Assembly (NCBI GenBank): GCA_938031175.1
Contig: CALHGZ010000005.1
Location: forward strand, 1-64,000
Reading direction: 5' to 3'
Length of the DNA: 64,000 nucleotides
Source of the DNA: Candidatus Kapaibacterium sp.
GTDB taxonomy: Bacteria > Bacteroidota > Ignavibacteria > Kapaibacteriales > UBA2268
Position 1 is the stretch's first letter; every line of letters begins with the position of its first letter. The translations under genes and the position numbers were made by a program. A model generated the notes under the pieces. It saw only the letters and a program-made list of their open reading frames with translations, was not told where the DNA came from and did not search any database. Of this stretch, positions 9,122-50,378 are shown piece by piece.

Positions 9122-10393
9122 ATGATTGAATTAGCTCCGAATTTTAAAAGTGGTGCTGTAATAAAGGTCGTAGGAGTGGGTGGTGGTGGTGGGAATGCCA
9201 TAAACAATATGATTAGAAGAGGTTTAAATGGCGTTGATTTTATAGCAGTTAATACAGATGTCCAAGCATTAAACTACAGTCTCGCGGAAATAACCGTACA
9301 AATTGGCGTTAATATAACCCGAGGTTTGGGTGCTGGTGCAGATCCGGAAATTGGCAGGAAATCAGTCGAGGAAGCAATTGACAAGATAAAGGAAATTCTC
9401 CAAGGTAGCGATATGGTTTTCATTACCAGTGGTATGGGAGGTGGAACCGGTACAGGTGCAGCTCCAGTTATTGCTAAAGCTGCTATGGAATTAGGCATAT
9501 TAGTTGTTGGTATAGTAACAAAACCATTTCTGTGGGAGGGTAAAAAGCGCATTAAAATAGCTGAAGATGGAATAAACGAGCTGAGAAAATATGTTGATGC
9601 TCTTATTGTAATTCCGAATCAAAAACTACTCGATGTTATTGACGTAAAAACTACCTTTATGGAAGCATTTCAAAAAGTTGATGAAGTACTTTACAATGCA
9701 ACAAGAGGTATTTCAGATATCATTTCCCGCCACGGAGTCGTCAATGTCGATTTTGCTGATGTTCGCACAATTATGAAGGGAATGGGTGATGCTCTGATGG
9801 GAATTGGTAAGGCTAATGGTGAACATCGAGCTACTGAAGCTACACAAAATGCACTCAATTCACCTCTACTTGATGGTATTTCAATTTCCGGTGCCCAAGG
9901 TGTACTTGTTAATATCACTGGTGGAATTAATATGACTATGCACGAAATCGCAGAAGCTGTTCAAATTGTCGAGGAAGCATCAGGAGGTAATGCCCTCGTA
10001 ATTCACGGTGTAGTACAAGAAGAAGAGCCAACTGAAGATCTTATGGTTACTGTTGTCGCTACTGGATTCAAAAAGAAAGATGAAAAAATAACTCAGGATC
10101 GTGGGATTAAAATCAAGTTACCACCTAATATCGAAACCTTTGTACCTCCTACTGTTAATGGATTTCCTATTAAAAGAAATTTAAAGCATCAAGAGGAAGT
10201 TAAAGATGGCAATACAAAAAGTTTTGATATTGATTATACAAAGCCTGCTTTTGAGAGGAAAGGGATAAACATAATTAAAACACCAGGGCAAGCGAATGAA
10301 GCCGTTAAGGGAGAAAATCCAAAGCAAATTGAAGATGTTCCAATGTTTCAAGATTTAGAAAAACCTGCTTTTTTAAGAAAAATTATGGATTGA
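9122..10393 (+). CDS. ftsZ: Cell division GTPase FtsZ
   Basis: The tubulin homologue that forms the cytokinetic ring. The N-terminal nucleotide-binding GVGGGGGNAINNM and the tubulin signature GGGTGTG (106-112) are intact, and the T7 loop reads VNVDFADVRTIM. After the conserved core comes a variable linker, then a C-terminal peptide (LEKPAFLRKIMD) of the type that binds FtsA. Length 423 is normal for Bacteroidota-like FtsZ. AGGAGAATCAT places a good ribosome site before ATG 9122. It is the last gene of the ftsQAZ cluster and is followed by a hairpin terminator. Confidence 0.98.
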   Translation: MIELAPNFKSGAVIKVVGVGGGGGNAINNMIRRGLNGVDFIAVNTDVQALNYSLAEITVQIGVNITRGLGAGADPEIGRKSVEEAIDKIKEILQGSDMVFITSGMGGGTGTGAAPVIAKAAMELGILVVGIVTKPFLWEGKKRIKIAEDGINELRKYVDALIVIPNQKLLDVIDVKTTFMEAFQKVDEVLYNATRGISDIISRHGVVNVDFADVRTIMKGMGDALMGIGKANGEHRATEATQNALNSPLLDGISISGAQGVLVNITGGINMTMHEIAEAVQIVEEASGGNALVIHGVVQEEEPTEDLMVTVVATGFKKKDEKITQDRGIKIKLPPNIETFVPPTVNGFPIKRNLKHQEEVKDGNTKSFDIDYTKPAFERKGINIIKTPGQANEAVKGENPKQIEDVPMFQDLEKPAFLRKIMD

Positions 10394-10417
10394 GATAGGG
10401 TAGTTGAATGAAAAGTT

Positions 10418-10447
10418 GGGGCAGGGTATGACTGCCCCTTTATTTTT
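10418..10447. terminator. Terminator between ftsZ and the fibre operon
   Basis: GGGGCAG (10418-10424) pairs with CTGCCCC (10432-10438), followed by TTTATTTTTA on the plus strand. On the minus strand the same stem is followed by AACTTTT. It can therefore serve both the ftsZ transcript and the convergent usher operon. Confidence 0.8.
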
Positions 10448-10468
10448 ATAAATAAGATATGAAAAATG

Positions 10469-13400
10469 CTATTCAATAATTTTAATATCCAGCCGACGAT
10501 TCTTTTTTCTGCCTTCAGGAGTCATATTGCTTGCGATTGGGGAATTAGCACCTTCGCCTGAGGATATGATTTGGTTCGGGTTAACGCCTTTGCTTAAAAG
10601 ATACGAAGCCGCAGTATTAGCTCGTTGCTCCGATAATTCAAGCATATCATTAATACTGCCAAAGCTATCGGTATGTCCAGTAATCACAATTTTGCTTCTG
10701 GGATTTAATTTTAAGTATTCTACTGCTTTATCTAAGTAATCTCGCATACTTTTCGTTAATTGAAAGCTGCGGATATCATTGTATTGAAAAGTCTCAATTG
10801 ATTGTATCTCTACTTGCCGACTATGCTCGTCTGTCTGGATATTCGTTTGCAACTGATGGTTGCTGGGGATCTCCGGTTTATGCTGAGGCAGTTCATCAGG
10901 GATATTTGGCATGCGATTATCATCTAATCGGCGTAAACCATCCTCTTCTTGGTAGGGATATCTCATCAGCTGTAAATCTTCAATTTGCATATCGAATTTC
11001 GATAATGTAAAAATGATATCACTAACGAAATCGCCTCCTTCCTGAGATTTTATTGCTATTTGCCGATTCAATGGTTTACTCTTAAGCTTCAATATTGCCA
11101 ATTGTAAAGAATCTACGTAAGCAATATATTCGCCCGGCACCATACCTAATTTATAAAAACTGCCATCGGAAAATACAGGTACCGATACAATATCGCCGGT
11201 ACGTATGTTCATAAAATGGACTTTTACACCAGCTTGTCCGGTTGTTCGTTCGCCTTCGTCTCGAAGAACTTGTCCTTCAACTACTCCTGCGGGATAGCAT
11301 GGAACATCGATATTCTTGTATATATTTGGGTCGGCTATGAAGGAAAATTCTGTTATTTTCGGTACGATTGTCGGGTCTTTGATGGATTTTGAGTCTATGA
11401 ATACATTGTAACGAGTGTAGGGCGTCAAGTTATAAACTTGAGTCATTCCGCCAGCACGAAAGCTATTCACCGATGCTTGCGGCACTCCTATATTTACACC
11501 TTCTACTATTTGCTCGCCTTCGTCGTAACGCCCATTATCGTTCATATCAACAAATACTCGTATATTCGCTGCACCGGCTCCAAGGTTCGAATATGTTGTT
11601 GCATTACTAACAAGTAGTGTTTTAAGTGTCGAATTGTAGCCGATTACACCGCTTAATTGCTGAGAGAAATGATTCGATATGCCTGTTCGATTATGGCTTG
11701 TTTGCGAACGGAAATATGGTAAATCCATACGGATTTGAATAGAAGCGCCTAAATCTCGATTGCCGAGCAATTGCTTTTCAATCGTATAATCAACATACGA
11801 ATTATGCCATAATCCGTGGCTAATTCTGAAGTTTACGTTTTGTAATTGATGGTTCGTAATATCGTATCGGCTACCAAATCCTAAGCTTAAATTCTTCAAA
11901 AAGCTTATGCTTTTGAGGCTATATAAATAATAATTAGCATTGAAATTCACAGAATGCTGGATTTTATTCCACATCGGTTTACCATTCAATTCTCCAATTG
12001 CCCCATTATAGTAAAACATTAGCATCAAACCAGATATATTAAAAAATATGTTCGAAAAGAAATCCGTCGAGGCATAGCTTTGATATTCTGTACGGCGAAG
12101 ATTGAGATTCAAGCTGAACGGGAACCGATTCCAACGTGGCAATTGAATATATGCTTCCGTCATCGAATTTGCTAGTCGGAAATTAATTCTATTATCTTTA
12201 CTTGTAAAAACTGTGTGACGGAAACGATAGGTTCCCAGAATATCCGACCAATAGTTGATTTCTCCAGCCCAGAGATTATTAATTGCATATTCGAACTTTG
12301 CGTGGATATTACCTAAGATTCGAATTGAAGTAATATTATAAAAATCCAGATTTTTTGTTGTTAACAAATCTTTCGATTTAATTATTTCGCTCCATTCTCC
12401 GAGATCGTTTTTCATTAGCGAGAATGAGTTCGAAAGCCAATTGGTTAAACCAGTTGAGACTCTCAGCTCCGCTTGCTTCATTTGGCTGAACTCGTATTCG
12501 CCTATATTAAGAGTATAGCGTATTTCACCAGGTTTGAGAAAATCATTGGGAATTTGAATAATTTCCCGTTTTTCCATATATTGACCACGATTACCATAAA
12601 AACGTAGTTCAATATTTGAATTACCGTAATATATCGGAAGCTCAAATCTATAATAGCCTCGGGCATCGGTTACTTGACGAGAATGCAGATAGCCATTGCG
12701 GTAAATTTCTACCTCCCACCCAGCCTCGATATGGTCCTCGTAAACAAATGTAGAGTAAAATGGCGAAATGTTTGTTACTTCGTTTGTGATTTGTATGCCA
12801 CGAATATTAAGCGAAGGCAAATTAGTAAAGCGGGACCCAGAGCTCAATAAATATCCTAAATTAATTGCACTTAGCCAATTATTATCACCGAAGCCGAGAC
12901 GCCAACGCGGAACATTTCGATAGCGAAATAGCTTTGTAAAGTCATCGTAATTACCTGTTGAATTGACTTGCAAATCACCACCGAGGATTTGGATTCCCAA
13001 ATTCGTATTGTAACTATAATTAGCAAATTTACTACTATAATATGCACGCAAATCGTAGCTCAAAGTGCCTCCATTGAACATGCTATAGCTTTGACCATAG
13101 AGAAGTGGTTTGAATTCAAGACGGCTTTCCCAACTTTCTTGCAAAAATGAATAGCTTTTCAATCGTTTTTGCTCGATGACAACAGGCATATCTATTTTGC
13201 TTGTAGCATTTGCCATTAGCTTGCTCATTTGGATTTTTACTTCCAATTGGAAAAACTCCCAAAATATTTCGGGTAAGACATAAATATCGAGCGAGCTAAT
13301 AAGGTATTTCGAGGTATCTATATCGAGCGTTTGCCAAAAAGTTTTGCCTTTGCCGATGCGGAAGTCGAATGTGTATGCGCTATCAGGGCGATTTAAATAT

Positions 13401-13642
13401 CCTTTGATTATATGATTGCCGTAGTCATAATCATTGTAAATTTTTAGCCCGTTTAGTACTTCCAAAAATGGAATATACACCTGCCCTTTGTATAGATAAA
13501 CAAATATATCCCCCCTCGTACCATAATATGTGAATTGGAATGGTATTTCCTCGGCATCATCGGGCATTTGCCGACCGTGGAGCGTGGAAAGCCCTGCTGT
13601 TAGTGCTAAAAAAATTATGCAATATCGGGCGATATGGTACAT
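10469..13642 (-). CDS. Usher-like outer-membrane protein with C-terminal OmpA domain
   Basis: A 1057-residue protein with a signal peptide (about 1-24). The N-terminal part is beta-rich. The central part looks like a large barrel with the usher-type stretch GWEVEIYRNGYLHSRQVTD...GYYRFELPI, followed by an ELRFYGNRGQ segment, both characteristic of fimbrial usher middle/plug regions. A later VFVDMNDNGRYDEGE segment resembles the Ca-binding-like SdrB/usher C-terminal fold. Residues 948-1057 are an OmpA/MotB domain with TGHTDSFGS and NRRLDIKI, i.e. the Asp and Arg used to bind meso-diaminopimelate. Directly upstream lie a PapD-like chaperone gene and three pilin-like genes. I infer an outer-membrane assembly platform for a surface fibre that is anchored to peptidoglycan. 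OmpA is certain; usher function is inferred from sequence pattern and context. Confidence 0.75.
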   Translation of the reverse strand: MYHIARYCIIFLALTAGLSTLHGRQMPDDAEEIPFQFTYYGTRGDIFVYLYKGQVYIPFLEVLNGLKIYNDYDYGNHIIKGYLNRPDSAYTFDFRIGKGKTFWQTLDIDTSKYLISSLDIYVLPEIFWEFFQLEVKIQMSKLMANATSKIDMPVVIEQKRLKSYSFLQESWESRLEFKPLLYGQSYSMFNGGTLSYDLRAYYSSKFANYSYNTNLGIQILGGDLQVNSTGNYDDFTKLFRYRNVPRWRLGFGDNNWLSAINLGYLLSSGSRFTNLPSLNIRGIQITNEVTNISPFYSTFVYEDHIEAGWEVEIYRNGYLHSRQVTDARGYYRFELPIYYGNSNIELRFYGNRGQYMEKREIIQIPNDFLKPGEIRYTLNIGEYEFSQMKQAELRVSTGLTNWLSNSFSLMKNDLGEWSEIIKSKDLLTTKNLDFYNITSIRILGNIHAKFEYAINNLWAGEINYWSDILGTYRFRHTVFTSKDNRINFRLANSMTEAYIQLPRWNRFPFSLNLNLRRTEYQSYASTDFFSNIFFNISGLMLMFYYNGAIGELNGKPMWNKIQHSVNFNANYYLYSLKSISFLKNLSLGFGSRYDITNHQLQNVNFRISHGLWHNSYVDYTIEKQLLGNRDLGASIQIRMDLPYFRSQTSHNRTGISNHFSQQLSGVIGYNSTLKTLLVSNATTYSNLGAGAANIRVFVDMNDNGRYDEGEQIVEGVNIGVPQASVNSFRAGGMTQVYNLTPYTRYNVFIDSKSIKDPTIVPKITEFSFIADPNIYKNIDVPCYPAGVVEGQVLRDEGERTTGQAGVKVHFMNIRTGDIVSVPVFSDGSFYKLGMVPGEYIAYVDSLQLAILKLKSKPLNRQIAIKSQEGGDFVSDIIFTLSKFDMQIEDLQLMRYPYQEEDGLRRLDDNRMPNIPDELPQHKPEIPSNHQLQTNIQTDEHSRQVEIQSIETFQYNDIRSFQLTKSMRDYLDKAVEYLKLNPRSKIVITGHTDSFGSINDMLELSEQRANTAASYLLSKGVNPNQIISSGEGANSPIASNMTPEGRKKNRRLDIKIIE

Positions 13643-13652
13643 TGCATCGCAT

Positions 13653-14474
13653 CTAATTCAATGTGAAATCAAATGTTTTCGAAAAAGGCTTGAACGATTT
13701 CGAGTTGAACTCTTCTGGCACTTCATCGCGTTCGCCTGTTACAAATAAGTGAAGTTTATATTTACCCGGCTGAAGCTTGTCGGCTGGTAGGGAGACCTTT
13801 TGGACGCAATCGAAATAAATAGCAAGCCCCAAATCCTGCTCCAAAACGGTTTTACCGTCTTCGCTCAATATTTTCATATTAGCCATACCCCAAAATGGGG
13901 CGTTCCCTCCTCGCTTATGGCGTATCATTAAATTGACACCGTTTGTATCGCGAAATACTTTGTCTAGTTCCATATCTAATTTCGATTCATTTTGACCATT
14001 CATATAAGCGACAAGACCAATGATTTCCGAACGTAGCACAATCTGAGCCGTAACCATATCCTTACTAACTGTATCTATTTGTGGAATGATTGGATTTGCT
14101 CCAACTATAATTCGTGTCCAGTAAAATTGATTTTCGTTTGGAACATTACGAACTACTATTCGAACCACCTGAGAAGATTTTGGCGGAATCATCATCTTCG
14201 AGGGATATGCTTTGATATATGGCAAAAGTGAATATTTCTGCTCGGCTGTGTTATCGTCGAAACGGGTATAGCCATTGCCCAGGGAATCATAGGTAAAATA
14301 GCCAAATTTAAATATTACATCATATTCATTCATCTCTTCAGATGTATTGAAAACTTCCAGTGTGCCTGTTTTCGTTTTCGGGTCTATAAATAATGCAGTT
14401 GGATGAATTACAACTTGAGAAAATGCTGTTTGTAATACAAGTATTGAAATTATTATTAAAAATATCTTTTTCAT
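13653..14474 (-). CDS. PapD-like periplasmic pilus chaperone
   Basis: A 273-residue secreted protein (signal peptide about 1-19, ending in FSQ). The N-terminal Ig-like domain begins VVIHPTALFIDPKTKTGTLEVFN. It continues to a PSKMMIPPKSSQVVRIVVRN strand, the equivalent of the G1/F1 region of fimbrial chaperones, where alternating hydrophobic residues complete the fold of pilin subunits. A second beta domain follows. Such chaperones bind pilins in the periplasm and hand them to the usher. It lies 10 bases upstream of the usher-like gene and after three pilin-like genes on the same strand, which supports the role. The usual FGS chaperone lysine/arginine pair was not clearly identified by eye. 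Confidence 0.72.
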   Translation of the reverse strand: MKKIFLIIISILVLQTAFSQVVIHPTALFIDPKTKTGTLEVFNTSEEMNEYDVIFKFGYFTYDSLGNGYTRFDDNTAEQKYSLLPYIKAYPSKMMIPPKSSQVVRIVVRNVPNENQFYWTRIIVGANPIIPQIDTVSKDMVTAQIVLRSEIIGLVAYMNGQNESKLDMELDKVFRDTNGVNLMIRHKRGGNAPFWGMANMKILSEDGKTVLEQDLGLAIYFDCVQKVSLPADKLQPGKYKLHLFVTGERDEVPEEFNSKSFKPFSKTFDFTLN

Positions 14475-14511
14475 TTTATTTCAATCCATATTAATTGGAC
14501 ATAGTATTCAA

Positions 14512-15096
14512 TCACATATTTAAACAAGCGCTTACTGTTATAGTAAATTCGGGATTACCGGTGGCAGTATTACTGCTGACAAATAGCTTTTTTGCAGTAA
14601 TCCTGAATTTAGCATAAGCTCGGCAATGATTTACACCACGCGGCTTGTATAATCGCACGTTTGTGTAAGCACTTGTTCTATTTTCCGATGGGCTTCCATA
14701 AACCCCATTAGTAAAAAAATCGGCTTTTTCCCAACTCCAGTTAGTGATTTGAGCATAGCCCGAACCGAGATAAGAACGTAAATTCATCGAAAAAGAAAAG
14801 TCATATCTCTTTCTTGAATCGCCATAAAGAATGAATTCAATTTCATTGCCATTACCATCGGTAGAGGGCAAAGTGTATTCCATTCCGGTGAGGAAACTGC
14901 CCAGATAAACATTCCCATTGCAAATTTCAATTTCAATTGGGCAGCCCCAGCAATTAGTTCCGAGTTCGTCGTGCTCACGGCGACGCTCATCGCAGGCTAT
15001 TAAATCAATTTGAAGTATGAAAAATTTAAATATAGCTAAAACAAAAAAAAATAATCCTGTTCGAACGGGAATTATTTTTCCTCTTTGCTTATTCAT
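14512..15096 (-). CDS. Secreted pilin-like protein 3 of the fibre operon
   Basis: A protein of about 194 residues with an N-terminal hydrophobic segment ending LQIDLIAC. This could be a normal signal peptide or a lipobox (LIAC) that would make it a lipoprotein. The rest is predicted beta-rich, with a Cys-x-AYAKFRITAKKL block and a C-terminal PEFTITVSACLNM strand, both shared with the two upstream paralogues. It lacks their N-terminal GTFTA motif and has extra cysteines (CWGC, then EIEIC). It could be a tip, adaptor or base subunit. The frame is open to an ATG at 15147, but the signal sequence argues for ATG 15096. Confidence 0.6.
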   Translation of the reverse strand: MNKQRGKIIPVRTGLFFFVLAIFKFFILQIDLIACDERRREHDELGTNCWGCPIEIEICNGNVYLGSFLTGMEYTLPSTDGNGNEIEFILYGDSRKRYDFSFSMNLRSYLGSGYAQITNWSWEKADFFTNGVYGSPSENRTSAYTNVRLYKPRGVNHCRAYAKFRITAKKLFVSSNTATGNPEFTITVSACLNM

Positions 15097-15210
15097 TTGT
15101 AAAATTAACAAAAGAGCATTGCAATTTTCTGTCATTATATTTTGCATCTTATTATAATTATTAATTATATATTGGCGGCAGGGCTGGAAACCCCGCCGCC
15201 GTATTATTCG

Positions 15211-15801
15211 CTATATGTTACAGCTTGCAGATAGTGTAACCGGGAAATAATATGTAGCTGGATTAGCGTGTGGATAAATTGTTAATTTGATAGAACTTAT
15301 TCTGAACCACGCATAAGAAGTACAATTAGATGGTCCCGGTATGAGCCTTAGAAGTCCTCCTGTCCAATTTGTCGGTAATGGTCCTGTATAGTTACCAAAT
15401 CCTATAACATTATAACTTGCATCCCATTCATAGGTAATTAAAATTCCTGTTACGATATCACCAATGAATCCATAAGTTACAGAGGTTGTATAATTAATTG
15501 GATTACTTGAATTATCAACTGCTGGACCATTAATTTCCCACTTGAAAAAGTATGTTCCAACTGTGAAATTATGGTATTCTATCGTAGTCGGTTTAAAGTA
15601 ATTACCAAGAGATACAAGTGTAGAATTCGGTGGTATAGAACCAAAATTTGAACTGAAGAATAAATTTGGGCTACACAATACTGCAGCTGTAAATGTTCCG
15701 GTTTCGGCTGGCGAAGTCCATGTACCTGCCATAAGCCTCGCATTCACGGCTACTGCTATGAAGATTATCACAGCTGCGAGTATTTTGAGTCCTTTGTGCA
15801 T
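15211..15801 (-). CDS. Secreted pilin-like protein 2 of the fibre operon
   Basis: A 196-residue protein with a clear signal peptide (about 1-25). The mature N-terminus GTWTSPAETGTFTAAVLCSP closely matches that of the next upstream paralogue. The C-terminal half has CTSYAWFRISSIKL and ends YYFPVTLSASCNI. Alternating hydrophobic residues at both ends fit an Ig-like pilin that donates an N-terminal strand to its neighbour. GGAGCTAATT precedes ATG 15801. I do not recognise a named family; a spore-coat-U/CsuA-B-like pilin is the nearest idea, and it is an inference from operon context. Confidence 0.65.
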   Translation of the reverse strand: MHKGLKILAAVIIFIAVAVNARLMAGTWTSPAETGTFTAAVLCSPNLFFSSNFGSIPPNSTLVSLGNYFKPTTIEYHNFTVGTYFFKWEINGPAVDNSSNPINYTTSVTYGFIGDIVTGILITYEWDASYNVIGFGNYTGPLPTNWTGGLLRLIPGPSNCTSYAWFRISSIKLTIYPHANPATYYFPVTLSASCNI

Positions 15802-15832
15802 AATTAGCTCCTTTTTAATTTATGAAGCTGTA

Positions 15833-16288
15833 TTATATAGAAGCTGTTACTGATACTGTAACCGTAAATATATGGGAACCTGTAGAAGCATTTGAAAAGG
15901 TTATATCATTTAGTGCTGCTTCTAAATCAACACTTTGTGAACAGTCGTTTTGAAAACCTAAAAATGTTCCAGTATAAGCACCGTTGTGGCTGTATGATAC
16001 ATTCCATGTTGCTCCAGTACCTGAGGTAACTGTTCCAGTCATAGAAATACTATAACTAGCAGCCTCAGGTCCTGCTAAAGTCCAATTTAATATATCAGGT
16101 GCTCCTGTATAAGTATCTGTTTGGAAGAAATTACCGGCATTGAATGTATTAGTTCCAGCTACTAATGTTGGTTGGCAGTAAACTGTTGCAGTGAATGTTC
16201 CAGTATATGGACCTGAAGACCAGCTACCAGCGAATGATACAGAAGTAGCAATAACAGCGACTAAGAGTATTGCAAGAATCTTTTTCAT
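15833..16288 (-). CDS. Secreted pilin-like protein 1, first gene of the fibre operon
   Basis: A 151-residue protein with a signal peptide ending VSFAG and a mature start GSWSSGPYTGTFTATVYCQP. It is the shortest and most regular of the three paralogues, and is Gly/Thr/Ser-rich as major fibre subunits often are. A second cysteine (NDCSQ) lies at the position of the CTSYAW cysteine in paralogue 2, so one intramolecular disulfide is likely. The end IFTVTVSVTASI is a strongly alternating beta strand. As first gene of the operon, with GGAG in front of ATG 16288, it is the best candidate for the major subunit. That role is inference. Confidence 0.65.
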   Translation of the reverse strand: MKKILAILLVAVIATSVSFAGSWSSGPYTGTFTATVYCQPTLVAGTNTFNAGNFFQTDTYTGAPDILNWTLAGPEAASYSISMTGTVTSGTGATWNVSYSHNGAYTGTFLGFQNDCSQSVDLEAALNDITFSNASTGSHIFTVTVSVTASI

Positions 16289-16303
16289 TTTTAAACTCCG
16301 TTA

Positions 16304-16365
16304 AAGTGTTAAACAAAAAATAGTTACAAAAAAATTTAGAAACAATAAAACTTTGCTTAACACTT
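16304..16365 (-). promoter_or_regulatory. Inverted repeat in the leader of the fibre operon
   Basis: AAGTGTTAA (16304-16312) and its complement TTAACACTT (16357-16365) form 9-bp arms 44 bases apart, 16 to 77 bases upstream of the first pilin start codon. The spacer is A-rich. It could be a paired operator or a leader hairpin. The position is suggestive; the function is not known. Confidence 0.45.
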
Positions 16366-16787
16366 CTAAATATGTGGCTGAAAGTACCGATATATTAAGA
16401 AGTGTCGGTTCCTAAGCTAAAGGCTGAGGCTGTCGATGAGATTAGATGCAAGAGTGATTTAGGTTCGCTGATTGCATTGTCTCACATGCCAAAGCCTTTT
16501 TTGCTTTTGTGCATTCCGGTATTTTTTGCGTTTTATAGCGGTCTCACAATATTAATATTATTTGAATATCATCTGATTTGCCAACTTTTGGTTACAATTC
16601 TCCTAATGGTTTTGTTTTTTCAAGGGGCTTGAAGCCTTCTTTTTATGGAGTTTGGTACCTTTTGCCGTACAATTTTTGTTGATTATGTTCAAATATTGAG
16701 CTCGCTATTTTTTGCATTTGATTCCGGAAAGTAGCAAATTACGGAAATACTGAGTAGCTTAACTGACGCATTGCAGTGTTTCTACCC

Positions 16788-16921
16788 GTTGGCTTTAGGC
16801 ATTGGATTACGTTTTTCGTCTGAATCGAAACCCCCGATTCGAGTTCAGCACTTGACTTTAGACATGGGGGTCAAGTCGAAAGTCAATTTTTCGACGAAAT
16901 TTTCTGCCTAAGCCTTTCAAC
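16788..16921. other. Nested inverted-repeat element, possible structured RNA or relic MITE
   Basis: Outer arms GTTGGCTTTAGGCA (16788-16801) and TGCCTAAGCCTTTCAAC (16905-16921) are imperfect complements. Inside are GAATCG/CGATTC (16822-16840), CTTGAC/GTCAAG (16851-16875) and the overlapping alternative TTGACTTT/AAAGTCAA (16852-16886). The segment is also richer in GC than its surroundings. I cannot tell which strand would be transcribed, nor distinguish an RNA element from a small degenerate mobile element. Confidence 0.45.
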
Positions 16922-17081
16922 CCAATTTTCAAAGAGCGAACATTTTTTATTAAAATTTTTGTTTCATTGATGCAAATGGCTTCTCTAGATATTTTTTTCG
17001 TAGAGTTTCTTTATATAGCTAATAAAGATTAATTTTAGTCAAACCTAATAAAAAAATTATTAACAAACAATCCGTTAAAAG

Positions 17082-17128
17082 GCGTAGAAATGAAAAATAC
17101 CATGTTCTCGGTATATGCTACGCTTTTT
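17082..17128 (+). terminator. Hairpin with trailing T-run, terminator-like
   Basis: GCGTAG (17082-17087) pairs with CTACGC (17118-17123), with an inner TACC/GGTA stem, followed by TTTTT. On the plus strand this looks like a terminator or the 3' end of a small RNA, yet no plus-strand gene precedes it. Confidence 0.4.
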
Positions 17129-17451
17129 GGCTTATGTGATTTTAATAAATCATTGAAAATGATAAAATTACTTGTTCTGAAGTTTTTTATTTTATATAAT
17201 ATTTAGGTTCTTCTTTCATTTAAAATTTTATATTCTAAAATAAAAATCTAAGATTATTTTAAACAAAAATTGGACATACTAATTTTAATATGAATTATTA
17301 GAAAAAATTTGTTTCATAATATCTAATATGATAATTAATATTTGGATATTTAATATTAGCATAAACTAAAACATTAAAATAAATTAATTTAAAAAAATTT
17401 TATTTTTCTAACTTTATATTTATATTATACACATTAAAATCGTATATCTTG

Positions 17452-18102
17452 ATGGAAACAAAAATCATATTAGCGTTTAAGTGTAGGCTTTTATCAAATT
17501 ACCTGAAGGATGATATAACCATTAAGCATCCAGAATATGAGTCAACAATTGTTCGGGATAAAGCATCATTAATTGCCACCCTGGTTGATGATGCATCCAA
17601 TGTTTTGCTAGTGGATGAGTTTTTCGATCCAACAAATATTGTGGAGCTATTGGAAGAGATTAGAAAAAAATATTTGAAATTAATCATTATATTATTGATA
17701 AGCGAAAATAATACTATCAAGAATTTGCGAGTTGTGAATAAATACGTAAACGGTTTTTTAGCGAAAACACCCCAAATAAGCAATGAATTAAAAAATGCAC
17801 TGGAAACGATTCGTGAGGGTAAGAAGTATATCTGTTTGCAATCGCAAGGAATAATCCTTGAATTAATCCGAAACAAAAAATACTCTTTGGATCCGAAAAA
17901 AATAAATACAAGGATTACACCGCGGGAATATAAAATCGTAAAAATGATTTCACAGGGTTTGACCGATAAAGAGATAGCAAATAATTTAGGCTTAAGCTCC
18001 CGGACGATACAATCGCATCGGCGGAATATGATGAGAAAATTCGAAGCGAAAAATTCTCTACATTTGATTAAAATTTTATACGAACTTGATATATTACCTT
18101 AA
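17452..18102 (+). CDS. LuxR-type response-regulator-like transcription factor
   Basis: A 216-residue protein with an N-terminal receiver-like domain and a C-terminal LuxR/FixJ helix-turn-helix. The DNA-binding part is textbook: ITPREYKIVKMISQGLTDKEIA, then LGLSSRTIQSHRRNMMRKF. The receiver is degenerate: the N-terminal acidic pair is missing, although VLLVDEFFDP still offers an Asp near the phosphorylation position and LAKTP resembles the conserved Lys site. No kinase gene is adjacent. A TTG immediately precedes ATG 17452; I use the ATG. Divergent orientation next to the fibre operon makes it the leading candidate for that operon's regulator, by inference only. Confidence 0.85.
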   Translation: METKIILAFKCRLLSNYLKDDITIKHPEYESTIVRDKASLIATLVDDASNVLLVDEFFDPTNIVELLEEIRKKYLKLIIILLISENNTIKNLRVVNKYVNGFLAKTPQISNELKNALETIREGKKYICLQSQGIILELIRNKKYSLDPKKINTRITPREYKIVKMISQGLTDKEIANNLGLSSRTIQSHRRNMMRKFEAKNSLHLIKILYELDILP

Positions 18103-18371
18103 TACATTCCACAATATTATTTATACTTGATTTTATTAATTATTATCGGAATTTTATGGACGAGCTATGCCTTGACTCTGTATTTTAAGTAAATTTACGT
18201 CAGTTTAGGTTTATATTGAATTTGATAAAATAAATTCCAATTAGTCGAAAAGTATTTTTTGCCAATTTCAACTTTATTTTAAAATTTTTAGTAATTAAAT
18301 TGCTATTTTGAAACATAATTATTAATGGAATCGTATTTAATAGTTGTATTTTAAATAATTTGGATTAAACT

Positions 18372-20297
18372 ATGTCAGAACACTCAACACAACAACAGCA
18401 GCAATATCCACCATATTATACACATCGGAGAAAATCGAATTGGTGGATACCAATCGTAATAGTAGGAGTAATTATAATTTTGTTTTTTGCATTTTTTGCA
18501 TTAATAATCGGTTCGATCAGCAGCGTATTTAGTTTTAAAACAGAAGTAATAGAAGTCAAATCCAATTCAGTGCTCTATCTGACACTGGATGATGTTACAG
18601 AGAATACCGAGGAAAATCCTTTCGCATTTTTTACAGGGGCAACCTTTGGAACTCGTTATTATGATATGATTCGTGCCATAAAAATTGCTAAAAATGATGA
18701 TAGAATTAAAGGTATTTATTACAATGCAAAATTTTCTCCAATGATGGGATTCCCTCAAGCACAGGAACTACAGAGAGTTTTAAAAGATTTCAAAGAGAGC
18801 GGTAAATTTATTTATGCTTTTATTGAAACCGGACGGGAATTTGAATACTATAATGCGCTTTTGGCAGATAGCATATTTATGCCACGTGAAGGTATAATGG
18901 AAATGAATGGATTTGGAAGTACCAATTTATTTTTGAAGGGATTTTTAAACATGATAGGAATAGATTTTTACGTCCAGGGTTTCGAGGATTTTAAATCTGC
19001 AGGTGAATCTTTCAGTAGAAAAAATTACAGCGATTCTGCACGTTATCAGATACAGGTCATACTGCAACAGATCTATGATGAATTTACTAATGCAGTCAGT
19101 GAATATAGAAAATTAGACAAAAAGCTTGTTGAAGATATATTAGTTCGCGGTGTTTATTCAGCTGACTCATTAAAAGAACTAGGATTTATTGATGGATTCA
19201 TGACTGATGCTGAAGTTCGAGATTTCATTAAAGATAAAATCTTCGGTAAAGATAGAGATAAGAAAAAAGATAAGTTACAATTAGTACGTATATCGAGTTA
19301 TTTGAATTCTGATCCACCTATACAAAAGAAAGATATTGTAAAAGATAAGCAAATAGCAATTATTTATGCAGTTGGACCGATAGTTGACCAACCATCTGAG
19401 GGATTCAATCAATCTCAAGAAATTATAGCTTCAAAAGTAGTTAATTATCTTAAACAGGCACGTGAAAACAACGATATCAAAGCCATAATACTCCGTGTAG
19501 ATAGTCCCGGTGGCTCGGTGATTTCATCTGACGCAATTCAAGAAGAAATTCAAAAGACAAAATCAGTAAAGCCAGTTTACTCTTCTATGGGCAATGTTGC
19601 TGCCTCTGGTGGTTATTATATATCAATGTCCTGCGATACAATTATTGCCGATAAATTAAGCATCACAGGTTCAATCGGTGTAATAATGGCTATTCCTAAT
19701 CTTAGTGGAATGATTAATAAATTAAATATTACTGCTGATACAGTATCGACCGGTCCTGCTGCTAATTTCTTCAATGGATTTTATCCTTTTACCGATAAAG
19801 AAAAAGAAGTTTTATACAATATGGGTAAGAATATATACTATAGATTTGTTGAGAAAGTGGCTAAAAATCGTAATATGACATTTGAACAAGCTAGAAGCTA
19901 CGCAAAAGGTAGAGTATGGACTGGTTACGATGCACAAAAAATTGGTCTCGTTGATGTGATCGGTGGACTTGATGACGCAATTAAAATAGCAAAACGTAGA
20001 ATAGGTGTACCTGAAGATGTTCCCGTTAGAATACAAATTTATCCTCGACCAGCTGATCCTATGGAAATGATACTAAAATTGCTCGGGATAATTGACGAAA
20101 CTGATGATGAGGAAATTGTCAAAACAAAATCTGATTTAGCCAAAGTCCTTAACTTGTCCCCAAATGCTTTTGATCTGATTGTGAATGAATTACCAGAAAA
20201 TGCAAAAAATCAGATTTATTACAATTTGCAATTGCTCGCACTTTCCAGAAAAGAAAAAGTTATGCTTGCAATGCCATATTATATCCAAATACAATAA
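18372..20297 (+). CDS. sppA: Signal peptide peptidase SppA, long (67K) type
   Basis: A 641-residue membrane-bound serine protease that degrades signal peptides left after secretion. A Gln-rich N-terminus leads to one transmembrane helix at about 26-50. Two tandem S49 domains follow. The catalytic Lys is K208 in FEDFKSAGE of the first domain, and the nucleophile is S412 in NVAASGGYYIS of the second, closely matching the K209/S409 pair of the E. coli enzyme. Length and domain order are normal. It is monocistronic, with a terminator hairpin 25 bases after the stop. Confidence 0.96.
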   Translation: MSEHSTQQQQQYPPYYTHRRKSNWWIPIVIVGVIIILFFAFFALIIGSISSVFSFKTEVIEVKSNSVLYLTLDDVTENTEENPFAFFTGATFGTRYYDMIRAIKIAKNDDRIKGIYYNAKFSPMMGFPQAQELQRVLKDFKESGKFIYAFIETGREFEYYNALLADSIFMPREGIMEMNGFGSTNLFLKGFLNMIGIDFYVQGFEDFKSAGESFSRKNYSDSARYQIQVILQQIYDEFTNAVSEYRKLDKKLVEDILVRGVYSADSLKELGFIDGFMTDAEVRDFIKDKIFGKDRDKKKDKLQLVRISSYLNSDPPIQKKDIVKDKQIAIIYAVGPIVDQPSEGFNQSQEIIASKVVNYLKQARENNDIKAIILRVDSPGGSVISSDAIQEEIQKTKSVKPVYSSMGNVAASGGYYISMSCDTIIADKLSITGSIGVIMAIPNLSGMINKLNITADTVSTGPAANFFNGFYPFTDKEKEVLYNMGKNIYYRFVEKVAKNRNMTFEQARSYAKGRVWTGYDAQKIGLVDVIGGLDDAIKIAKRRIGVPEDVPVRIQIYPRPADPMEMILKLLGIIDETDDEEIVKTKSDLAKVLNLSPNAFDLIVNELPENAKNQIYYNLQLLALSRKEKVMLAMPYYIQIQ

Positions 20298-48475: not shown

Positions 48476-49414
48476 ATGCCATTTGCCATTGGAGGGAATT
48501 CGCGCATCAGAACTAATATACCTGCAGAAAATGCATATAATGCACTTGAAACATCCAATCGGAATATTTCATTAAGACAATTAAGGCTTTCGACAGGTAA
48601 AAGAATCAATAACGCAGCTGATGATGTTGCCGGGTATATTACATCCCGTGCTTTGATTGCACGCGGTTCAGCATTAAAGGCAGCCTTACGAACAGTTGGC
48701 GACGCCACAAATGTTGCTAATATAGCAATGGATGCTTTAGATAATATTTACTCAATTTTAAATCAAATTAAGGAAGCTGCCTCCTATGCTGCTTCAGGTG
48801 CGCAGGGAACTGCAGAAAAAATTGCCTTAGCCAAGGGAGCCTATCGGTTAGCCCAACAAATTCAGACTGTAGTAGAATCAACCGTATTTGGCGGCAGACA
48901 ATTGCTTGATGGAACTTTTTGTGCTGACTTTATAATTGGTACTAATGCAACTCATAGTTTACTTACATTGACGCTCGATTTAACATCTTTGAATCAAGAC
49001 TATAACGTCCAAAGTAGTTCATTTAATTTAAATGCGATGAGTGTTAGTAGTTTTGGCGGTGTATGTGGATTGGATTTAAGAGAGTTAAACAATGTTTCAA
49101 ATAATGACCAGGGTATATTTCATAATGATGTATTACATTTAACCTTGAAAAGTTTATCGGAGGCTATCGATAATGTCAATAAGGTTGCATCTTATGTTGG
49201 TGGAGTAGTATTTAGGCTCAATTCTCAGGAAGATTTATTAAAAAGCCAGATAACTAATTATAATGCAGCTATATCCCGAATTGAAGATGCAGATGTTGCA
49301 ATGGAACAATTGGAGTTAATCAAAGCGCAATTTTTACAGCAAGCTTCTCTGGCATCGCTTGCTCAAGCTAATTTAAATCCGCAGGCATTCCTGCAATTAA
49401 TTAGAGGAACTTAA
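48476..49414 (+). CDS. Flagellin A
   Basis: A 312-residue flagellin. The N-terminal helical D0/D1 part is clear (NAYNALETSNRNISLRQLRL, STGKRINNAADDVAGYITSRAL). The C-terminal part (AISRIEDADVAMEQLELIKA, QFLQQASLASLAQANLNPQ) completes the coiled core. The variable D2/D3 centre is small, so filaments should be thin or smooth. A strong GGAGGT site precedes ATG 48476. It contains two Cys residues (FCADF and GVCGL), unusual for flagellin and absent from its tandem copy. It has no signal peptide because it leaves through the flagellar export gate. Confidence 0.95.
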   Translation: MPFAIGGNSRIRTNIPAENAYNALETSNRNISLRQLRLSTGKRINNAADDVAGYITSRALIARGSALKAALRTVGDATNVANIAMDALDNIYSILNQIKEAASYAASGAQGTAEKIALAKGAYRLAQQIQTVVESTVFGGRQLLDGTFCADFIIGTNATHSLLTLTLDLTSLNQDYNVQSSSFNLNAMSVSSFGGVCGLDLRELNNVSNNDQGIFHNDVLHLTLKSLSEAIDNVNKVASYVGGVVFRLNSQEDLLKSQITNYNAAISRIEDADVAMEQLELIKAQFLQQASLASLAQANLNPQAFLQLIRGT

Positions 49415-49442: not shown

Positions 49443-50378
49443 ATGCCATACGTTACAGGTGGTCAATCAAGAATCCGAACAAATACTCCAGCAGAAAATG
49501 CTTATAATGCATTAGAGGCATCAAACAGAATAATTTCCCAAAAACAGTTGAGATTATCAACAGGGAAGCGCATAAACAGTGCTGCTGATGATGTTGCTGG
49601 CTATATTACATCAAGAGCATTGGCAGCAAGGAATGGTGCATTGAAGTCAGCATTGAGGACAGTTGGAGATGCGTTGAATCTTACGAGTATTGCTCAAGAC
49701 GCACTAGATAATATCAACACATTAATCACAACAATTAAGGATTCTGCTGCTTCTGCATCATCGGGTGCTTTAGGTACTGATGAAAAAGTTGCTCTTGCTA
49801 AAGCAGCATACAGATTAGCTCAGCAGATTCAAACTGTAGTTGATTCAACTGTTTTTGGCGGTCAACAATTGTTGAGCGGCGCTTTTACCGGTGAATTTGT
49901 TGTTGGTTTCAATGCTGCTAATACTTTATTAACTTTTTTGATTGATTTATCAACTTCCAATGTGGATTATAATATCACAAGCAATAATTTCAATATCAAT
50001 GCAATGTCAACAACTAATTTTGCAGGTGTAACAGGCTTAGACCTGACAAGTTTAGATGCAGTAAGTTCATCTGATTTAGGAATTTTCTCGAATGCTTTTA
50101 TAAGCACAACTCTAACGAGCATTGCAGAAGCCATAAATAACATCAATAAAGTAGCTTCCTATGTTGGAGGCATTACAAACAGGTTGACATCGCAAGAGGA
50201 GTTATTAAAAGGACAGATAGTAAATTATAATGCAGCTATAAGTAGATTAGAAGACGCAGATGTGGCACTCGAACAATTGGAGCTAATCAAAGCACAATTT
50301 TTACAGCAAGCTTCGCTAATATCGCTAGCTCAAGCTAATCAGAACCCAACCAATTATTTGCAATTGTTAAGAGGTTGA
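49443..50378 (+). CDS. Flagellin B, tandem paralogue
   Basis: A 311-residue flagellin very similar to the previous gene in both terminal regions (PAENAYNALEASNRIISQKQ; AISRLEDADVALEQLELIKA). The two differ most in the central 150-200 region. It lacks cysteine. AGAGGTGTAAA precedes ATG 49443, and the gap from flagellin A is 28 bases, so the two are probably co-transcribed. A terminator follows. Two flagellins may form different parts of the filament or be made in different amounts. Confidence 0.95.
   Translation: MPYVTGGQSRIRTNTPAENAYNALEASNRIISQKQLRLSTGKRINSAADDVAGYITSRALAARNGALKSALRTVGDALNLTSIAQDALDNINTLITTIKDSAASASSGALGTDEKVALAKAAYRLAQQIQTVVDSTVFGGQQLLSGAFTGEFVVGFNAANTLLTFLIDLSTSNVDYNITSNNFNINAMSTTNFAGVTGLDLTSLDAVSSSDLGIFSNAFISTTLTSIAEAINNINKVASYVGGITNRLTSQEELLKGQIVNYNAAISRLEDADVALEQLELIKAQFLQQASLISLAQANQNPTNYLQLLRG

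Follow-up and report, generated by a model that had tools for sequence, protein, structure and literature searches.

We analysed the first 64,000 nucleotides of contig CALHGZ010000005.1 (assembly GCA_938031175.1, Candidatus Kapaibacterium sp.), hereafter the window, and conclude that five genes at positions 10469-16288 very probably encode a fibre system of chaperone-usher type, from a clade that lies outside current usher models. The genes are read from the minus strand in the order P0003-P0004-P0005-P0002-P0001, with gaps of 31, 63, 37 and 10 bp (Table 1). An earlier note, made from the sequence letters, had described them as three related secreted beta-strand proteins, a PapD-like chaperone and a large barrel protein with usher-type segments and an extra domain, together forming a fibre operon outside the known types. 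The five same-strand open reading frames (ORFs) are present as described, and the assignment draws on the usher fold and the OmpA domain of P0001, the conservation of the chaperone-usher gene pair and the profile kinship of chaperone and subunits. The placement outside the known types holds in that no PF00577, PF00345 or SCPU match was found in any window protein with Pfam or NCBIfam, and in that the ushers form a clade apart from four E. coli ushers and one archaic usher; it does not hold in the sense of an isolated oddity, for the class is widespread and includes Proteobacteria.

The single domain recognised by Pfam in the five proteins was PF00691 in P0001, and the sub-threshold NCBIfam matches were to OmpA-domain models (P0001), to the fimbrial chaperone StbB at 0.02 (P0002) and to the signal-peptide ends of P0003 and P0004. 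P0001 was modelled with AlphaFold2 on the basis of 38 aligned natural sequences (mean predicted local distance difference test score, pLDDT, 84). The model shows the first six barrel strands at residues 189-286, followed by the plug and the remaining strands, and a disordered linker (885-942) before the OmpA domain. A Foldseek search of the PDB with this model returned FimD or PapC chains at all of ranks 1-16 (best 3rfz_B, E 7.5e-31), which goes against the refuting outcome named in the earlier note, a 1057-residue protein lacking an usher barrel and plug. VIA-align superposed residues 182-880 onto residues 132-833 of FimD (9fw9_D) with a Z of 24.0 over 606 aligned residues, the root-mean-square deviation (rmsd) of 9.3 being taken across several domains, and the barrel alone matched 3ohn_A with a Z of 22.6 over 358 residues at 3.8 A. 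Sequence identity in these alignments with ushers is 10-13%. Profile comparison agreed, as hhalign against four E. coli ushers (FimD, EcpC, HtrE, YehB) gave 97.9% (E 3e-13, 504 columns) over residues 188-758, plug included, and 0.7% in a reversed-sequence control. P0001 is thus predicted, from its model, to have the barrel, plug and C-terminal domains of an usher. Pfam found no PF00577 in P0001 and weak matches in two of 35 relatives (best 3.2e-4); below the cut-off, P0001 matched an SdrD_B stretch and DUF3862, and 10 of the 35 relatives matched Cu_amine_oxidN1 in their N-terminal region at E<=0.1. A PDB sequence search with the usher profile gave partial-domain matches only.

The extra domain of the platform is an OmpA peptidoglycan-binding domain resembling Pal and OmpA structures at Z ~18 (18.4). 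Its residues D992 and R1007 are invariant in a nine-sequence alignment of the domain and have the spacing of the pair that binds diaminopimelate in A. baumannii OmpA, whose ligand-bound structures are among those listed by VIA-align. Among 54 ushers compared, 16 carry an OmpA tail, 15 of them within the window's own order (including a second copy in the same genome), and several end without any tail. Elsewhere other modules take this place: at E<=0.1, SPOR was matched by 14 and TPR_2 by 13 of 35 ushers, and SPOR and TPR structures matched the 35-usher profile behind the C-terminal domains in a PDB sequence search. SPOR is a peptidoglycan-binding domain as well. The presence of two different wall-binding domains at usher C-termini suggests selection for wall anchoring, although the ushers without a tail speak against a general need. 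The OmpA tail of P0001 suggests that its usher may be tied to peptidoglycan, which would be of use to a load-bearing fibre.

By transitive profile homology only, P0002 is assigned as the PapD-like periplasmic chaperone proposed in the earlier note. Its family matched a set of six chaperones from DUF4402 operons, of which four are encoded on proteobacterial plasmids and two in same-phylum genomes of family f20 (Chlorobia, by our guess), at 99.5% (E 2.7e-22) over 215 columns reaching the second domain, with 0.1% for the reversed control; three of these six (L141, L157, L158) pass the PapD_N cut-off of Pfam and the other three fail it. Within the P0002 family, PapD_N was matched at E<=0.1 by 10 of 33 members (best 6.7e-4). 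The single sub-threshold Pfam match of P0002 was Cep192_D6 (0.013), and a Pfam search for PapD_N across its own genome found nothing. PDB sequence searches with the P0002-family profile gave chance matches only, the search with the L070 chaperone was likewise fruitless, and a contig scan with the chaperone alone gave 591 pattern matches, none a confirmed relative.

Two residues of the chaperone are informative. According to PMC4654587, one proline is invariant across the chaperones of the chaperone-usher superfamily, and Arg89 of CsuC is the carboxylate-anchoring residue. P91 of P0002 aligns with the TPP proline of E. coli chaperones and is kept in 115 of 116 rows; the remaining row is a truncated sequence. 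In the sequence alignment the position of CsuC Arg89 is occupied by W119, and an arginine, Arg121, follows two residues later. Across the 116 rows, Arg or Lys stands at 121 in 70 and Arg at 119 in 32, and the remaining 14 show neither pattern (63, 32 and 13 of the 108 distinct sequences). The Arg/Lys121 pattern belongs to the side of Bacteroidota, Gemmatimonadota and Zixibacteria, the Arg119 pattern to Proteobacteria, Acidobacteriota, Eisenbacteria and family f20, and Elusimicrobia chaperones are among those with neither. Saprospirales chaperones (L196, L197) carry the YRSH motif of the proteobacterial side, and the L196 usher groups, on a long branch, on the Bacteroidota side. Another kind of PapD_N protein, with a GQIAVSPSMFEL-like N terminus, occurs in family f20 loci (L138-L140, L142, L143, L145, L148) and looks distinct from the P0002-type chaperones.

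Judging from profiles, P0003-P0005 are divergent relatives of DUF4402 proteins. P0003 shares 36% identity with P0004 and 21% with P0005, and ORFs of locus L136 match all three, so that the kinship announced in the earlier note is shown mostly via intermediates; signal-peptide-like N termini were recognised by eye in the operon proteins. Pfam gave no match to the three proteins at E<=10. In relatives, DUF4402 proteins (PF14352) are encoded upstream of the chaperone, above the cut-off in L070 (1.3e-26) and L131 (1.5e-10) and below it for two proteins of L057 (7.4e-4). With signal peptides trimmed, window-type and DUF4402-type subunits matched by hhalign at 84.9% (E 6e-6, 153 columns), with 0.2% for the reversed control and 0.3% against chaperones; we use this value because the untrimmed 97.5% is inflated by signal peptides. 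The trimming was heuristic, and one short row (L132:73-480) lost much of its protein. One subunit profile iteration drifted into chaperones in its last round and served only for picking candidate subunits. SCPU was matched by none of 12 window-type subunits in Pfam, and hhalign to one SCPU pilin (L246) gave 0.3% with alignment A7 and 3.7% with alignment A8.

Chaperone-usher pilins end at their last beta strand, and in the 37-row subunit alignment the chain ends, by eye, within a few residues of a common last beta-like segment. In the AlphaFold2 model of P0003 made from this alignment (pLDDT 82), residues 41-150 hold six strands and the N-terminal stretch behind the signal peptide is without secondary structure, which would agree with an incomplete immunoglobulin (Ig) fold whose donor segment is free. 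In a Foldseek search with the model, chaperone-usher pilus entries supplied all of the top six chains and eight of the top ten, with an archaeal cannula protein at rank 7 and a CLIPPER domain at rank 9; the resemblance of the predicted six-strand fold to pilins is suggestive, not proof. An alternating hydrophobic segment stands at the expected place of a donor strand in P0003 (TGTFTATVYC) and in P0004. In P0005 the segment that follows the signal peptide is charged and lacks this hydrophobic, donor-like character, and because of this we guess that P0005 may be the tip.

The chaperone-usher gene order recurs in related genomes, where the earlier note had proposed to look for the five-gene order. 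Since loci were picked by homology to the window proteins (36 loci in the phylum, and 20 of the 28 matches in the order outside the own genome), it is adjacency and not presence that is informative. Homologues of P0002 occur in 31 of 198 phylum genomes, and a P0002-type chaperone in 22 of 123 genomes of the order, the own genome included in both counts. The Pfam Usher model had no match above its cut-off in the 198 same-phylum genomes (one match at E<=0.001), and PapD_N passed its own cut-off in 13 of them, all of family f20. In 30 of the 36 phylum loci a chaperone gene precedes the usher gene and is read in the same direction; the other six comprise two split frames, one contig end, one chaperone missed by phmmer, one weak distant pair and one without a chaperone. 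The same holds for all 20 order loci, with a small repeat-like ORF between the two genes in L119 and the usher cut by the contig end in L122. A scan of named genomes with the usher alone gave, among the matches listed, 79 loci, several on the same contigs as the order loci; 69 have a chaperone upstream, six lie at contig edges and four are without one, and a DUF4402-like subunit was found by profile in 52 of the 79. Their hosts include Candidatus Kapaibacterium, Ignavibacteria, Balneolaceae (Fodinibius salsisoli), Bacteroidales and Saprospirales, and further Gemmatimonadota, Zixibacteria, Eisenbacteria, Latescibacterota, Elusimicrobia, Holophagae (Geothrix fermentans), Alphaproteobacteria, Marinobacter and Oligoflexia. 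PF00577 was found in none of ten such genomes searched whole. The system of P0001 thus belongs to a widespread class with DUF4402-like subunits, present in Bacteroidota-type lineages, Gemmatimonadota, Acidobacteriota, Elusimicrobiota, Proteobacteria and others.

Plasmid records (two Polaromonas, Pseudoalteromonas, Sphingopyxis) carry the annotated order DUF4402, chaperone, and 'carboxypeptidase regulatory-like' or '-like regulatory domain-containing protein', the chaperone being named 'molecular chaperone', 'fimbria/pilus periplasmic chaperone' or 'hypothetical protein'. In the own genome, a second chaperone-usher pair (L051:6018-10211; contig 5, 183.0-187.2 kb) also has an OmpA tail and is preceded by proteins of 283 and 223 amino acids (aa) without a Pfam match. 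Holophagae (Geothrix) loci L217, L218, L224, L230, L232 and L235 encode a further DUF4402-like protein of 311-327 aa after the usher, which in size and place recalls a 333-aa protein behind the archaic usher of L246.

Phylogenetic analysis separated these ushers from the known types. In a tree of 61 ushers, the 57 of the P0001 kind split from the four E. coli ushers with a Shimodaira-Hasegawa-like approximate likelihood-ratio support (SH-aLRT) of 86, and the window usher stands among Kapabacteria-type ushers. In a tree of 33 ushers, five known-type ushers lie on one side of a branch with SH-aLRT 95 and 28 rows of the P0001 class on the other. L246, the single archaic usher included, served as a control: its locus has an SCPU pilin, a PapD_N chaperone and an usher matching PF00577 at 4e-32, and hhalign scored this usher at 99.2% against E. 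coli ushers vs 1.7% against the P0001 class. Both are quick trees from selected rows, and because EcpC and L246 are long branches our claim is limited to the separation from known types and does not extend to an exact branching order.

Taken as a chaperone-usher system, the operon would work as follows. P0003-P0005 would reach the periplasm via Sec, where P0002 would lend a strand to each incomplete Ig-like subunit and bind its C-terminal carboxylate. The OmpA-fused P0001 would take up the chaperone-subunit complexes, open its plug and thread the subunits outward, while the N-terminal segment of each subunit would displace the chaperone strand of the preceding one (donor-strand exchange). In the resulting thin fibre the shaft would consist of P0003, with P0005 as its tip, and the C-terminal OmpA domain may fix the usher to peptidoglycan as a mechanical anchor for the loaded fibre.

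Several results weigh against the assignment of the operon to such a system. Usher residues 31-170 are barely covered by VIA-align and unmatched to the FimD N-terminal domain, the domain that recruits the chaperone. PapD_N was not found by Pfam in P0002 itself; its family reached six E. coli chaperones by profile at 91.3% untrimmed and at a moderate 58% without signal peptides (reversed 0.8%), and the archaic chaperone of L246 at a low 25%, a single-sequence comparison which is a weak test in that E. coli chaperones vs L246 give just 11%. None of the 12 window-type subunits matched DUF4402 in Pfam even at E<=1. The best Foldseek match of P0003 has an E of only 0.013, and with VIA its score for FimG with donor strand (Z 6.2) ties with that for an integrin domain (6.1) and is followed by those for antibody domains (5.5). 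Could P0001, then, be an export pore or an envelope-stabilising OmpA-type porin, with the small proteins as secreted monomers? It does carry an OmpA domain, and its barrel also resembles porins, Occ among them, at Z ~16. However, usher structures score far above these (Z 20-24), the rmsd of the barrel is 3.8 A vs ~7 A for porins, P0001 has a plug and the C-terminal domains as well, and the genes for chaperone and pilin-like proteins are conserved together with it, so that we consider a porin highly improbable.

Within chaperone-usher systems, the question is whether the operon is merely a diverged archaic (sigma) one. Archaic pili such as Csu (PMC4654587) share with it the gene order, the conserved proline and an Arg in the equivalent chaperone strand; moreover, the DUF4402-operon chaperones match that of L246 at 83.5% and share with it, by eye, an aromatic-Arg motif. 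Against this, the window has no SCPU subunits, its usher is not a PF00577 usher, its chaperone Arg is shifted by two residues, and the L246 usher groups with PF00577 ushers both by profile and in the tree described above, albeit as one archaic system on a long branch. We regard an archaic origin of this kind as improbable. It is somewhat easier to imagine, though still unlikely, that chaperone-usher machinery is at work but yields an amorphous or capsule-like coat of the Caf1 kind in place of a discrete pilus. All three subunits are small, no two-domain tip adhesin is present among the five operon genes (judged by size only), and the DUF4402-type subunit profile found nothing significant in the PDB, the best match being Caf1 (E 0.43). 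A wall anchor would suit a load-bearing fibre better; otherwise the present data do not separate the two products. A chaperone-usher fibre system outside current usher models remains our preferred reading.

This system can be compared with further known ones. With Type 1 and P pili (FimCD, PapDC) it shares an usher with barrel, inserted plug and a pair of C-terminal domains, the chaperone gene beside that of the usher and small beta subunits; it differs from them in the missing PF00577 and PF00345 matches, the low usher identity, the OmpA tail and the unmatched N-terminal domain. The DUF4402 plasmid operons of Polaromonas, Pseudoalteromonas and Sphingopyxis (chaperone 99.5%, usher 100% by profile) and the Geothrix fermentans locus (chaperone E 1e-41, usher E 4e-139) share its gene order. 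In these systems, in contrast, the chaperone Arg is at 119 and not 121, and the Pfam matches of the five ushers scanned include no OmpA domain; the Pseudoalteromonas locus has separate SPOR-domain genes. Type V fimbriae (Mfa1, Porphyromonas) are beta-sandwich surface fibres of broadly related bacteria. According to PMC5789003, they mature by Rgp protease cleavage and neither chaperones nor ushers had been described for P. gingivalis; on these differences we rejected a type V fimbria.

In some lineages the usher is followed by genes related to the flagellar motor. In all 13 loci inspected (family f26, called Balneolaceae-type from named relatives, and one of f25), the usher is followed on the same strand, with gaps of at most 77 bp, by ORFs of 608-690, 154-185 and 240-272 aa, and in 12 of the 13 by a further ORF after the last of these. 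Domains were scanned in two of the loci (Table 1); the small 154-185-aa protein, scanned once, matches TPR. A hydrophobic helix lies near residue 220-295 in three FliG-domain proteins checked, and of 135 loci 19 encode a homologue of the FliG-type protein, named Balneolaceae and Balneolales contigs among them. Eleven of the 14 genomes with FliG_C at the usher locus have no flagellin match, which 49 genomes do have. A tight link between FliG and usher is countered, however, by a second FliG_C protein (~610-650 aa) elsewhere in eight of the 14 genomes and by three genomes (G093, G120, G143) that hold a FliG_C protein only away from ushers. The FliG/MotAB module was not seen at the two loci of the window's genome. 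The gene order suggests that a motor-like module may work with the chaperone-usher fibre in some lineages. As a tentative extension, which we consider less likely than not, there may be a separate multi-phylum chaperone-usher class with DUF4402-like pilins, an usher invisible to PF00577 and often an envelope-fixing OmpA, SPOR or TPR tail, which in Balneolaceae-type lineages is joined to flagellar-motor-derived FliG, MotA and MotB, and in which ion flow may turn, pull or tension the fibre.

Archaic chaperone-usher systems are placed in Proteobacteria, Cyanobacteria and Deinococcus-Thermus by PMC4654587, and chaperone-usher systems were excluded from the genome survey of PMC4793230. Our search of the open-access literature, subscription literature being outside it, found no description of such a DUF4402-linked chaperone-usher class among the titles and abstract openings listed. 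If our interpretation is true, names such as DUF4402 and 'carboxypeptidase regulatory-like' conceal a whole set of surface fibres of Bacteroidota, Acidobacteriota, Gemmatimonadota and other groups, DUF4402 gains a function and a searchable usher profile is supplied. The class would also offer natural tests of the chaperone's grip on the subunit, with the Arg shifted by two residues, and of the usher's need for a wall anchor, and the operons linked to FliG/MotAB raise the question, open to test, whether a chaperone-usher fibre can be powered.

Table 1. Features of the operon at 10469-16288 and of the motor-linked usher loci
Feature	Residues or locus	Window coordinates	Strand	Description
P0003		15833..16288	-	151 aa, putative major pilin; signal peptide, six predicted strands, chain end = last strand; Cys38/Cys116
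P0004		15211..15801	-	196 aa, putative minor pilin; donor-like segment TGTFTAAVLC
P0005		14512..15147	-	211 aa, probable start Met18; putative tip or terminal subunit
P0002		13653..14474	-	273 aa, putative PapD-like periplasmic chaperone; profile links, conserved P91
Chaperone motif	Y118-W-T-R121	14112..14123	-	replaces YR motif of sister clade and archaic-type chaperones
P0001		10469..13642	-	1057 aa, predicted usher fused to OmpA domain
N-terminal domain(s)	usher 31-170	13133..13552	-	without match to FimD N-terminal domain
Beta-barrel	usher 189-670	11633..13078	-	6 strands, plug, 18-19 strands
Plug domain	usher 295-349	12596..12760	-	small beta domain inserted after sixth barrel strand
Two C-terminal beta-sandwich domains	usher 690-882	10997..11575	-	SdrD_B / CarboxypepD_reg-like
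OmpA peptidoglycan-binding domain	usher 949-1056	10475..10798	-	PF00691 2.4e-21; conserved D992, R1007
Terminator-like hairpin		10418..10438		between ends of 9122-10393 gene and usher gene; weak
FliG-domain protein, MotA_ExbB, MotB_plug/OmpA	L054:11081-15001, L064:14502-18772			downstream of usher; domains scanned in these two loci only
Same downstream arrangement	L055, L056, L058, L060, L071, L072, L075, L077-L080			eleven further loci

The operon points at the 3' end of the gene at 9122-10393, a putative FtsZ gene from reading its sequence. We count the terminator-like hairpin between the two gene ends as weak evidence because nine such sites were found vs 5.0 +/- 2.0 in shuffles. The sigma-70 promoter scan was uninformative (29 sites vs 28.8 in shuffles), and Rfam gave no match in 10000-18500. 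Divergent from the operon lies a LuxR/GerE-type regulator gene (17449-18102, plus strand), whose link to the operon is doubtful because homologues at 1e-5 were found in only three of 135 loci. Flagellin N-terminal domain matches lie in the window at 48506-48916 and 49473-49889, and this organism is therefore probably flagellated as well.

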